Source: Bacteroidia bacterium (GTDB taxonomy: Bacteria; Bacteroidota; Bacteroidia; 2-12-FULL-35-15). Taken from it: 64,000 bases of DNA. Below the pieces are notes generated by a model. The model made no database searches. It saw nothing but the letters and a program-made list of their open reading frames with translations, and was not told where the DNA came from. The position numbers and the translations under genes are program-made. The stretch lies in assembly GCA_030654175.1 (NCBI GenBank), contig JAURXZ010000024.1, forward strand, positions 1 to 64,000, read 5' to 3'. This document shows positions 7,638 through 54,532 of the stretch, piece after piece. Positions within the stretch are counted from its first letter, which is position 1. Every line of letters starts with the position of its first letter.

Positions 7638-7733
7638 TTGGGCGTTTCCCTTTCTTAAAAAAGAAAGGGGCGGGCTTTTCACTGCAATCTTTTTGTGAAG
7701 AACAAAAAGGATTTCCGTTGCAATCCCTAACGC
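7638..7733 (+). repeat. GGGCGTT two-hairpin dispersed element, copy A
   Basis: Begins TTTGGGCGTTTCCC and ends CAATCCCTAACGC. Hairpin 1 is CCCTTTCTT/AAGAAAGGG. Hairpin 2 is CTTTTTGT/ACAAAAAG inside the conserved frame CAATCTT...AAGGATT. Two more copies are at 42217-42322 and 54442-54532. Confidence 0.9.
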
Positions 7734-7773
7734 GGCATTATTATACTAAGAGCATTATTGGGAACCGAAACTA

Positions 7774-39668: not shown

Positions 39669-40382
39669 ATGACTGAAAAGGAACTAATAAAGAGCATTGT
39701 AAATTATTTCGAGAAAAATATTTTTGAAAAGCATATTAATGCATCGCTTAAGACTCATTCCAAATTAAAATCATACAATATCAACCCTATTGTTGTTAAA
39801 TATTTATCAAAAGTATTAGATGGTAAATACAGTCCGGAAGGAATTGCTAAAGCCTTATTCTATCCCAGAGTTCTAGGGACTTCTATTAACACCTCCTTTG
39901 GAACTCAAATTCAAAAGATGTTTGTTGAGCTTCAAATTGCTAAAGGCTCTCTGATTAAGGGAATGGATATTGAATTTTTTGATAAAATTGAAAAAAGAGA
40001 AAAATGGTGTCAATTGAAATCTGGCCCCAACACTATAAATTCAGAAGATGTTAAACCATTAATTAGAAAGTTTACCGATACTATTCAGTTAGCTAGGACA
40101 AATAGTGCTTTAAAAGGAATTCGTAATACCGATTTTGTTGTTGGTGTATTATATGGAGAAGTGACTGAATTGAGTATGCACTACAAAACAATTGACAAAA
40201 CACACCCTGTTCTTATCGGTAGAGATTTCTGGCATAGAATAACGGGGTTTCCAAATTTCTACGACAAGTTAGTAGTTGCCCTGCATGTGTGTATTTCCAA
40301 TTTAGATACTAAAGACTTTATTAATAAAGGGTGCGAGGATTTAGCGTCAGAGATTCGAAACTCCCCATTATTTAAATTTTAA
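39669..40382 (+). CDS. Putative type II restriction endonuclease, PD-(D/E)XK fold
   Basis: 237 residues from the ATG at 39669. An in-frame ATG at 39618 would add 17 Cys/Lys-rich residues and is less likely. Convergent to, and overlapping by 15 bp, a DNA cytosine methyltransferase. A PD-(D/E)XK core is visible: E87 in FGTQIQKMFVEL, D100 in KGMDIEF and Q115-L-K117 in WCQLKSGPNTINS, that is D-x14-QxK. The segment KSGPNTINS resembles PmeII- and Eco47II-like enzymes, so one of those families is likely, but the recognition site cannot be read from sequence. Family assignment is by motif and context only. Confidence 0.8.
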   Translation: MTEKELIKSIVNYFEKNIFEKHINASLKTHSKLKSYNINPIVVKYLSKVLDGKYSPEGIAKALFYPRVLGTSINTSFGTQIQKMFVELQIAKGSLIKGMDIEFFDKIEKREKWCQLKSGPNTINSEDVKPLIRKFTDTIQLARTNSALKGIRNTDFVVGVLYGEVTELSMHYKTIDKTHPVLIGRDFWHRITGFPNFYDKLVVALHVCISNLDTKDFINKGCEDLASEIRNSPLFKF

Positions 40383-41612
40383 CTCCTTATAATATTGGTT
40401 CAAAAATTTCACAATAGAATGTCCAACTTCCATCCCTAAATTTACCGGGACAGCATTGCCAATTTGCTTGTATTGCTGGGCAACAGAACCTTCAAATTTC
40501 CACTCATCTGGAAAAGTTTGAATACGAGCATACTCACGAATTGTAAATGGACGCGTTTCTTCGGGATGACACCTTTCTGTTTGTTTTTGAGCAGGACTGC
40601 ATGTTAAAGTCAAGCAAGGTTCATCCCACCCAATTCTGCGTGCAATACCAGTTTTCCCACCACCAAGATAAAAACTTCCACCCATAAATTGTTTTTGAAT
40701 TTCCAAAGGCAAATCTCGCCAATAACCCTTTGGAGGAACTAAATCTAAAACTTTAATTTTACTGTTTGGGTACTTTGAACCTTCTGACTTTGGCACATTA
40801 CAATTAAACAATTCTCCTTTTTTTAATGCATCTTTTAAATTGTATATTTTTTTGTGTGGCTTTGGGTATTCATAATTTAATTTAATATCTTTTCTGATAC
40901 CGACCAAAATTATGCGCTCCCTCTTTTGAGGTACTCTAAAATTTATCGCTTTCAAAACTTGCACAGGAACTACATTATAACCGATTTCATCTAAAATAGA
41001 AATCATTCCCTGCAAGGTCTTTCCTTTTTCGTGACTCAACAAACCACGAACATTTTCCCCAATACAAATAGGCGGATTTACTTCTTTTACAACTCTTGCA
41101 AATTCATAAAAAAGAGTTCCTCTGGCATCAGCTAAGCCCAATTTTTTTCCTGCATAACTAAATGCTTGACAAGGAAAACCGCCAGTAACAACATCGACTT
41201 TGTTATGGTATTTTGTAAAATCAAATACTTTAATATCACCTTCCAAAACATTCCAATTTGGCCGATTTTTGCGCAAAGTTTGGCAAGCCCATTTATCAAT
41301 TTCGTTCAATGCAACACATTTCAAACCGGCTTTTTCCATTCCAATAGCCAAACCACCTGCTCCTGCAAACAATTCCAAAACGGAATATTCGTTTTCAGGT
41401 TCAACATAATTGGAAACTGTCTCTTTTATTTTTTGAGGCAAAAAATTAGCAAACAAAGTTTCTACTTCTTCTTTTTTATAAACTCTATAATTACTCATAG
41501 GTTCACGAACAGCGGACAGCTTGCCTTCTCTATCCCACCTTCTTAAAGTTTCTTTGCTTTTGCCTATTAATTCAGATGCTTCTGACAATGTTAAATATTT
41601 TTTCATAACCAT
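40368..41612 (-). CDS. DNA (cytosine-5-)-methyltransferase with N-terminal helix-turn-helix
   Basis: 414 residues. Residues 5-55 form an excisionase/MerR-type DNA-binding domain (YLTLSEASELIGKSKETLRRWDREGKL, then NYRVYKKEEVETLF). The C5-methyltransferase follows: motif I FAGAGGL (82-88), motif IV GGFPCQAFS with the nucleophile C148, motif VI ENV (186-188), motif VIII QKRERIILVG, the target-recognition region (about 270-340) and motif X GNAVPVNLG. It protects host DNA from the convergent endonuclease. The HTH suggests that it binds its own promoter, as the N-terminal domains of M.EcoRII- and M.SsoII-type enzymes do. Repeated TAACC half-sites lie just upstream. Confidence 0.93.
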   Translation of the reverse strand: MVMKKYLTLSEASELIGKSKETLRRWDREGKLSAVREPMSNYRVYKKEEVETLFANFLPQKIKETVSNYVEPENEYSVLELFAGAGGLAIGMEKAGLKCVALNEIDKWACQTLRKNRPNWNVLEGDIKVFDFTKYHNKVDVVTGGFPCQAFSYAGKKLGLADARGTLFYEFARVVKEVNPPICIGENVRGLLSHEKGKTLQGMISILDEIGYNVVPVQVLKAINFRVPQKRERIILVGIRKDIKLNYEYPKPHKKIYNLKDALKKGELFNCNVPKSEGSKYPNSKIKVLDLVPPKGYWRDLPLEIQKQFMGGSFYLGGGKTGIARRIGWDEPCLTLTCSPAQKQTERCHPEETRPFTIREYARIQTFPDEWKFEGSVAQQYKQIGNAVPVNLGMEVGHSIVKFLNQYYKELKFK

Positions 41613-42139: not shown

Positions 42140-42216
42140 ACACCTGCCGCACCTTTACGCTTAGAAACACAGGGCTTGAAATACTTTTGGAATTGGTTCC
42201 TTAGAATGGCAATTTT

Positions 42217-42322
42217 GCGTTAGGGATTGCCGCGCAAATCCTTCCCTTCCGTCAACTGGCGGAAGGGAAGATTGAAGCAAAAAGCCCGCCCCTTTCTTGT
42301 TTAAGAAAGGGGAACGCCCAAA
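42217..42322 (-). repeat. GGGCGTT two-hairpin dispersed element, copy B
   Basis: The minus strand reads TTTGGGCGTTCCCC ... CAATCCCTAACGC. Hairpin 1 is CCCCTTTCTT/AAGAAAGGGG. Hairpin 2 is CTTCCCTTCCG/CGGAAGGGAAG, unlike copies A and C in sequence but again fully paired. Confidence 0.92.
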
Positions 42323-42334
42323 TAGCTAAGATTA

Positions 42335-43531
42335 TTAATTACCTGCAGTTTTAACAAAAAAGCCATAAAGACGTCTTCCGCAGAACTCATTGATAGGGCG
42401 GTCTTTTGCAGGAAGGTATCCGGTTGCATTTCTATATGCCAAAAGAATAAATGGAGCAGTAGGCAATACTTTTGTAACGATCATATTATGTCCTATAATT
42501 GCAGGGCTTCCGCCATTTCCCAACTCAAGAATATCACCTTTTTTCAACACTTTGATTGTATTGTAAAACGTGGTCCATTGCGCTGAAGGAGCTGTAGCCA
42601 TAGGCACAAGAATATTTGCAAATTTTGGAGTAACGCGGTTATTACCATTTACACCTCCATACTGCCCTGAGTTATTGATAAACTGATAAAATGCATTTGC
42701 TCCTGCCCATGATGGGCTGCGCTTGTAGGTCACCATATTATTTCCGGATGCACCACTGGATTTATAAAACCAATTATTGGTTTGTTTCCAGCCTCCTTCA
42801 CGTAAACAACGGGAAGTGAAATTAGTGCAATCTCCACCTAAGTTTGTAAAGTCGTAATAACTGGTAACGTTTGTTATCATGTTCCAATGAGCTGTTGCAA
42901 AAGCTGCTGCGGCTGTACCGGAATAATTATAGGCGGCAACATCTTTATTAAATGAAGCAGGCATATCTTCGTCTGTTGAAATGATACCGGGATTATAGTT
43001 AGGATCAATTGTTTGTTCTTCATTAACAATTAACCAACCTTGTTCTTTTTCAGAAACAGTAAAAGTGTATAATTCATACCCTGCAGGAATAACTGCTTCA
43101 CCGGTAAACATATCCGTTGCATTAGTGGTATATGAATAAAACAATGCTACATTGAATTTAACCAGATCCCCTTCAACTTTCCAGGTGCTGTAATCGATAT
43201 CAGCCTTTACTTCAAAACCGGTATATACCAGCTCCCCTGTTGCTCTGATGGTTTTTTGATCTTTAATATCGTTAAGGCATTTTTCAGCCGCGGCTGTAGT
43301 TGAGAAAAAAGCGGATACTCTATTTGAAGTGTTTTGTGCCTCAATTGATCTTGTTTCAACTAAAAGCTGATGTTTATTTTCGAAAAAATTCTTAACCAAA
43401 ACATCCAATTCCTTATTTGCTGTAGGACAAGATGCGTTTGGGGTTAAAGAGGTTTCTTTTTTACAACCAAAGAACATTGATACTGAAACAAAGAGTGCAG
43501 TAACAATACTTAGTTTGATTTTTGAATCCAT
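42335..43531 (-). CDS. Amidase-domain lipoprotein
   Basis: 398 residues. Lipobox MFFGC gives lipidated Cys23. The N-terminal half (about 30-200) has no recognised domain. The C-terminal half starts YNYSGTAAAAFATAHWNMITNVTSYYDFTNLGGDCTNFTSRCLREGGW, the signature of the putative amidase domain (Amidase_6), with the Cys of GGDCTNF as likely nucleophile and a His in IGHNMIVTKV as partner. Likely a cell-wall or peptide amidase of the papain-like superfamily, anchored in the envelope. It is followed directly by repeat copy B on the same strand. Confidence 0.88.
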   Translation of the reverse strand: MDSKIKLSIVTALFVSVSMFFGCKKETSLTPNASCPTANKELDVLVKNFFENKHQLLVETRSIEAQNTSNRVSAFFSTTAAAEKCLNDIKDQKTIRATGELVYTGFEVKADIDYSTWKVEGDLVKFNVALFYSYTTNATDMFTGEAVIPAGYELYTFTVSEKEQGWLIVNEEQTIDPNYNPGIISTDEDMPASFNKDVAAYNYSGTAAAAFATAHWNMITNVTSYYDFTNLGGDCTNFTSRCLREGGWKQTNNWFYKSSGASGNNMVTYKRSPSWAGANAFYQFINNSGQYGGVNGNNRVTPKFANILVPMATAPSAQWTTFYNTIKVLKKGDILELGNGGSPAIIGHNMIVTKVLPTAPFILLAYRNATGYLPAKDRPINEFCGRRLYGFFVKTAGN

Positions 43532-44103
43532 TTTTAATTTTTTAATTTTTATTGCCTACTCATTGTGCAGCTTTTCGGCTTCCGCTGTGATGTTTAAAAT
43601 TAAAGTTGCTGAGTTTGATTATACGAAACGGAATAATGTAAACGTGTATTCACATTTGAATTTAGTGTATTGTCCGCTGGGTGTTGAAGAATTTTGTAGC
43701 TGAAATTGCTACCTTGAAGGAGTACAAGTACTTTAATCATTCTTAGCGGTTTTAGGAATAAATGATCAAATCATTCATTCTTTTAGGGTGTTCACTAAAT
43801 TTATTTGCATGGCAAAAGTAATACGGTTGTTTGCGAAAACCAAAACATTTTCATGGAATCCGTTGAATGGCAAAAGGATAACTGTATTTATGCAAAAAGA
43901 CAGATTTTTAGTCTTCTGATGGAGTATAATTCAGATAAAAATTTCAGTTGATAAATTTCCAACAGGACTTTTATAGCTAAAAGGCTGATTAACAACACTA
44001 TATTGTGTTGTTTAATACTATAATTAAAAGCAAAAGTTTCCTCAAAAATCCTTAAATCGGGTGATTTAAGTAATTTTTGTTCTTTATTGAAAAACACGGT
44101 TTT
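43532..44103. other. Gene-free gap
   Basis: 572 bp. It holds an 8-bp hairpin AACAACAC/GTGTTGTT (43991-44012) without a clear T run, and GAATAAATGAT/ATCATTCATTC (43755-43779). No frame here has gene-like composition. Confidence 0.6.
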
Positions 44104-54416: not shown

Positions 54417-54441
54417 TTTGTTTTTTGTAATTGATAATGCT

Positions 54442-54532
54442 GCGTTAGGGATTGCAGCGTAAATCCTTTTCTTTTTAGAAAAGATTGAAGCGGAAAGCCC
54501 GACTTTCTTTTTTAAGAAAGGAACGCCCAAAA
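54442..54532 (-). repeat. GGGCGTT two-hairpin dispersed element, copy C
   Basis: The minus strand reads TTTGGGCGTTCC ... CAATCCCTAACGC. Hairpin 1 is CTTTCTT/AAGAAAG; hairpin 2 is CTTTTCT/AGAAAAG. It starts 26 bp after the gatB stop codon, on the strand opposite to gatB. Confidence 0.92.

Follow-up and report, generated by a model that had tools for sequence, protein, structure and literature searches.

Three copies of Flavo-1 (Rfam RF01705) are present in the window, the whole 64,000 bp stretch of DNA analysed, and on balance we regard this family as REP-like, non-autonomous mobile DNA rather than as an RNA gene. The copies lie at 7640-7733 (reverse strand), 42217-42319 (forward strand) and 54442-54528 (forward strand), with Rfam matches at 7664-7741, 42212-42295 and 54434-54508; the scores are 57.9, 56.6 and 48.7 bits, all above the gathering score of 42. 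A first-pass annotation had reported three repeats with paired segments at these places, each just after the 3' end of a gene, and this is correct: the sequences, coordinates and pairings check, and a gene ends 15-36 bp before each copy, with copy 3 also 67 bp ahead of the next gene. It had however named no described function for an element that is already catalogued, and had written it on the strand opposite to the Rfam match in all three cases. The sequence CCCTAACGC occurs three times in the window compared with 0.10 expected from shuffles, and 146 times genome-wide compared with eight for the reversed pattern. The family entered the lists of candidate structured RNAs in 2010 (PMC2864571), and a 2022 review counts it as one of the most abundant families of sRNA (PMC9029176). 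Within a limited search, the accessible parts of the literature naming Flavo-1 or RF01705 contain no description of it as mobile DNA, and the full junction, the DNA-like behaviour, the stem replacement and the inversion described below were likewise not found in the parts examined.

The whole element is approximately 90-105 bp and consists of a closing stem (P1), a conserved hairpin (P2) and a variable hairpin of free sequence (P3); hairpins 2 and 1 of the first-pass annotation correspond to P2 and P3, respectively. DNA folding gives a three-way junction for all three window copies, in which the proposed pairing of the outer edges, GCGTT with AACGC, forms P1. Copy 2 runs from GCGTT to AACGCCC, with P1 formed by 42217-42221 and 42313-42317, P2 at 42223-42287 and P3 at 42289-42312. 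In copy 1, P2 is at 7672-7727 (central pairs AC/GT) and P3 at 7648-7669, both on the reverse strand, and in copy 3 they are at 54448-54500 (central pairs GC/GC) and 54503-54520 on the forward strand. On the Rfam strand the DNA folds reach z-scores of -5.1, -4.0 and -3.5, and 0 of 200 shuffles are as good; on the other strand the values are -4.4, -3.4 and -1.7. The junction is also the minimum in RNA folding (z-scores -5.9, -2.8 and -2.1), although the RNA scores are weaker than the DNA ones for two of the three copies. The core hairpin in Rfam is the same as in the window copies, and the Rfam structure line, typed as a small RNA, describes the P2 hairpin alone over 76 positions, without P1, P3, the GCGTT..AACGCCC ends or any reading as dispersed DNA. 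The three-way structure holds across many copies and is strongly supported.

The P2 hairpin has an unusual and well-preserved core. Each half has the form GATTG-n-A-N-N-G-n-AAA, and the helix starts with three basal pairs, followed by a G.A / n.n / A.G loop and two Watson-Crick pairs; another loop of the same kind comes next, then AATC/GATT, where a C is bulged, and lastly an apical stem of free sequence. The two 3x3 internal loops are thus of the form GNA/GNA, flanking two covarying base pairs, and probably form sheared G.A pairs. The basal pairs are GGG/CCC in this genome and CCC/GGG or CCT/AGG in relatives. Among 109 copies in the same genome that were found by Rfam or in the window, and not selected by the core pattern, 98 retain the full core; window copy 2 does not, differing at two positions. 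The bulged C is present in 140 of 141 distinct cores.

Base-pair covariation, the lack of which would have counted against the structure proposed in the first-pass annotation, is seen in both P1 and P2 across many copies. A pattern that demands the GNA loops selected 170 cores from viral contigs and from this genome, its genus and its phylum. In 151 of them both central P2 pairs are of the Watson-Crick type (shuffle mean 55.6, maximum 74 in 2000 shuffles), as they are in 122 of the 141 distinct cores (shuffle mean 46.4, maximum 65); the copies behind these statistics are related, and hence are not independent events. An exact complement of the left five bases is found near the right end in 107 of 123 elements, and where the left end is other than GCGTT its own complement is at the right end in 12 of 19 (shuffle mean 0.83, maximum 4), with covariant pairs including GCGTG/CACGC, GCATG/CATGC, GCATT/AATGC and GGCTT/AAGCC. 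The central P2 pairs contain 15 G.T and no A.C combinations in the 170 cores, and the apical stem contains 20 and 5 in the 141 distinct cores. Because G.T outnumbers A.C, the P2 fold matters on the Rfam strand, and the constraint on the fold thus appears to lie on the strand opposite to that first written. The earlier proposal of an RNA or a cruciform DNA stands as regards the three-way structure; the asymmetry in P2 speaks against a cruciform in which both strands act alike. P1 lacks such asymmetry, its few mismatches having no excess of G.T over A.C, and P3 is uninformative since its columns are misaligned in the 98-element alignment (49 G.T and 49 A.C).

Flavo-1 is abundant in this genome and patchily distributed elsewhere. 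There are at least 134 matches, 130 of them above the cut-off, divided between the strands as 66 and 68; the number is a lower bound because 150 candidates were scored and the match list does not include window copy 2. The sets used for placement, alignment, identity and site comparison are drawn from this list or from patterns. No near-identical pairs are seen among 98 copies, the maximum pairwise identity being 96.8%, and local GC skew reveals no replication-strand bias (32 versus 28). Within the genus, matches occur in 23 of 36 genomes and, with up to 96 candidates scored per genome, the number of copies ranges from 0 to at least 96; the congeners G005, G027 and G035 have none and are rated 99% complete. 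Of 395 genomes across the phylum, 28, including this one, contain the strict core pattern, and none contains the reversed pattern. Most loci from other families have a different type of end, TAGCCC..GGG..AGCTCC. No match was found in phages. Two weak matches in Paraclostridium plasmids cover only about 60% of the query and were treated as chance, and viral contigs yielded 4 and 5 stretches, with no lead from the flanks of the four that were inspected.

Comparison of the same sites in relatives reveals differences in presence and orientation. Copy 3 lies between gatB and a redoxin gene, and the element is absent at this site from all 14 congeners in which both flanks are anchored, seven of which carry Flavo-1 elsewhere; the flanks are 68-84% identical, and the exact junction is thus unreadable. 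At the copy 1 site panC is non-adjacent in all 80 relatives compared, and at the copy 2 site the contigs of the sister genome G008 end inside the element. Beginning from 108 copies in this genome, 21 sites were matched in G008 (about 90% DNA identity), with the element the same at 15, partial at four, inverted at one and lacking at one, where another repeat is in its place. G021 has the same element at three sites and lacks it at two, one of which is a diverged gap of about 1.3 kb. Absences are under-counted, because most of the G008 and G021 loci were chosen around the Flavo-1 copies of G008 and G021 themselves. No clean empty-site junction was seen among 144 elements within the DNA compared, and a site is retained between species in four pairs among 28 loci, one of these four being between genera of a single family. 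The inverted element is at C31:303670, where the sister genome has nearly the same sequence (by eye) turned around in place.

Other hairpin repeats are inserted within P2 or P3 of some copies. We note that one of these, CCTTCGACAAG..GCTCAGGATAAATTC or close variants of it, occurs either in P2 directly after GGGATT or in place of P2, and is seen at L050, L051 and L064 of this genome and at L329, L330 and L353 of G008. A nested palindrome, ACCTC..CTCTCC..GGAGAGG, is present in P3 of several copies of this genome (for example C34:328456, C31:80693 and C27:466080); for the first of these, P3 is simple in the sister genome.

A true structured RNA, either a small RNA or an element of untranslated regions, is the alternative that survives best, and we consider it somewhat unlikely. 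Covariation and tolerance of G.U would follow from RNA folding, which also gives the junction; the family is typed 'Gene; sRNA' in Rfam, and low-copy members in other families are conserved in position. The strand-specific covariation and wobble asymmetry of P2 are nonetheless explained equally well by RNA and by single-stranded DNA. The position of the copies relative to genes is harder to reconcile with an RNA gene. Among 97 copies whose neighbours were called by a simple ORF finder, 53 have tandem (co-directional) genes on either side, 25 have convergent and 8 divergent ones, and 11 are inside short called ORFs, leaving 86 outside. At the 53 tandem sites the strand shows no preference relative to the flanking genes, being the same in 23 and opposite in 30. 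This agrees with the F. psychrophilum transcriptome, where, in the part of that report available, matches are indistinctly sense or antisense of transcribed regions, many lie outside such regions, and no consistent relation to transcription is evident (PMC9723704). The absence of gene-strand preference, the range of 0 to at least 96 copies among congeners, the absence at the gatB site and the inversion in place all argue against an RNA gene, as do the nested insertions.

Possible exchange of stems between copies raises a second alternative. For the comparison of copy with copy, 12 of 26 site pairs were parsed and 14 left out, including the inverted one. Both cores were parsed in ten site pairs. 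Two of these ten have a wholly different apical P2 stem (C30_10961, and C16_113872 compared with G021), and a third (C19_58563) differs at several of the paired positions of that stem. Double compensatory changes affect the central P2 pair in C16_226995 and C51_284602; in C27_17120 the change there is uncompensated, and in C30_10961 the copy of this genome has a mismatch. Hairpin 2 had been described as changing completely while staying fully paired; double compensatory changes do occur, and the change is at least partly replacement of whole stems at fixed sites. In 8 of the 12 parsed pairs the copy in the relative is nearer to another copy of this genome than to the one at the same site, most clearly for C30_10961 (0.921 versus 0.782), and the replaced stems probably come from other Flavo-1 copies. 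Such observations, together with the lack of near-identical pairs, would also be expected of an old family of repeats that lacks an active enzyme, in which pairing is kept by template switching and gene conversion and not by selection. Around position 10942 of L074, a Flavo-1 copy has a 5' half almost exactly complementary to its 3' half, which is what template switching would produce. We nevertheless think a neutral relic of this kind unlikely, since the mismatched loops (98 of 109 copies) and the bulged C (140 of 141 cores) persist even though perfect palindromes are available to such a process, and cores of the same pattern are found in other families where the reversed control gives none.

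A bidirectional transcription terminator is very improbable, for although the copies lie a median of 45 bp from gene 3' ends and convergent gaps are commoner (25 of 86 intergenic copies compared with 85 of 514 gaps of at least 60 bp, a background that includes the Flavo-1 gaps), 53 of the 86 are between co-directional genes in both orientations, several class B members have no obvious P3 hairpin, and separate terminator-like hairpins are seen between some copies and the neighbouring gene (the last two by eye).

The reading as REP-like mobile DNA leads to the ends of the element and to the enzymes that might move it. Across 98 elements the left boundary falls between AATGC[TC] and GCGTT and the right between ACGCCC and AAAT. 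There is no target-site duplication, the best excess among 360 offset combinations being 5 matches compared with 1.2 when shuffled. Because target duplication is absent, the ends are fixed and asymmetric and the hairpin is strand-specific, an enzyme of the Y1 HUH type is suggested. A classical MITE mobilised by a DDE transposase was rejected, the inverted ends being short (5 bp tested) and without target-site duplication. Integron attC sites likewise fold as single strands and have a bulged base and a terminal stem that varies, features shared by Flavo-1, but these too were rejected: the GTT/AAC boxes of Flavo-1 are in the reverse of the RYYYAAC..GTTRRRY order and the copies are dispersed, not arrayed.

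Flavo-1 shares several traits with REPs associated with REP-associated tyrosine transposases (RAYTs): it is high-copy, extragenic and palindromic, and lacks a target-site duplication. Neither a GTAG nor a CGTC tag is present at the foot of the hairpin (98 elements), and no transposase gene is flanked by Flavo-1 copies at the loci scanned. The first-pass annotation had said that repeats explained as the ends of a known MITE, or of a REP with a transposase, would count against it; the behaviour is REP-like, but no transposase gene was found adjoining. According to the parts of the sources available, the CGTC-tagged REPs are similarly a dispersed palindromic family without a dedicated transposase, but each is one hairpin with a stem of 8-9 bp and the CGTC tag, whereas Flavo-1 is a two-hairpin junction without that tag (PMC3733652), and for Bacteroidetes RAYT genes of TnpA-Y1 subclass 2.6 flanking 'atypical secondary structures' are reported, which like Flavo-1 are structured intergenic repeats (PMC6006769).

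This genome has five Y1 matches, of which four were scanned, giving two REP-associated tyrosine transposases (NCBIfam NF047646) and two of the IS200 type. By motif resemblance the two REP-type genes are putative members of subclass 2.6. One, at L042, is between direct copies of a 78-bp repeat (1230-1306 and 1965-2041, 86% identical), the upstream one of which can fold as a three-way junction in DNA on one strand, as Flavo-1 does. The other, at L043, has two repeat copies on one side (by BLAST) and another by eye, and one segment can fold as a junction, with the opposite strand more stable as separate hairpins; these L042 and L043 folds depend on the segment chosen and are without a shuffle control. 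Both repeats are sequences other than Flavo-1, and simple patterns for them have no matches elsewhere in 838,550 bp sampled from this genome. Flavo-1, unlike these repeats, flanks no RAYT gene examined. The closest Y1 match to a copy in this genome is 5.3 kb away, and in 27 other genomes, with 95 Y1 matches and 101 Flavo-1 places (the first places of each genome), no Y1 gene is beside Flavo-1 and the closest is 18 kb away. Of 53 Y1 loci scanned, mostly with IS200-type best matches and few of the RAYT type, only L085 has Flavo-1 nearby, about 1.4 kb off. G250, rated 100% complete in about 90 contigs and with six Flavo-1 places, has no Y1 match. Copy number and Y1 matches are weakly correlated (Spearman 0.40, p 0.015, uncorrected, the high counts being lower bounds).

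A scenario consistent with mobile DNA is that the Flavo-1 strand, once single-stranded, would fold into the three-way junction with its ends closed by P1, so that single-stranded DNA would be the active form. P1 and P2 might then be recognised by a nuclease or transposase specific for structured single strands, for which a RAYT-like Y1 HUH enzyme is the likeliest candidate. This enzyme would copy the element, or move it, to permissive intergenic sites, where copies could later be altered stem by stem and flip in place. Counted in favour are the patchy copy number within the genus, the absence at the gatB site, the placement, the covariation of P1 and P2, the inversion and the changes of stems, together with the capacity of the repeats flanking the two NF047646 transposases to fold as junctions. 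Counted against are the lack of an adjoining Y1 gene, the absence of Y1 from G250 and the weak correlation; the difference of the RAYT-flanking repeats from Flavo-1, their failure to appear dispersed and their folds without shuffle control; and the absence of GC-skew strand bias, the absence of G.T excess in P1 and the sharing of most G008 sites. Recent activity is further argued against by the absence of any pair more than 96.8% identical, the lack of a clean empty site and the four retained site pairs. A fuller version, possible rather than probable, is that Flavo-1 is a family of single-stranded DNA three-way junctions in several Bacteroidota families, inserted and inverted by some enzyme, with its two hairpins as exchangeable modules, and that the 'small RNA' of Rfam is transposon-like DNA. 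Were Flavo-1 mobile DNA, counts of bacterial small RNAs would include transposon-like repeats and covariation alone would be no proof of RNA. It would also raise a directly testable question about the identity of an enzyme that recognises three-way junctions carrying GNA/GNA loops.

Among other features of the window, we note a match to the DUF805b RNA of Rfam at 43553-43588 on the reverse strand (43.2 bits, gathering score 35.6). It is directly upstream of the gene at 42335-43531, whose sole Pfam match is Amidase_6 and not DUF805. The C-5 cytosine DNA methylase encoded on the reverse strand at 40368-41612 carries a MerR-type helix-turn-helix at its N terminus.
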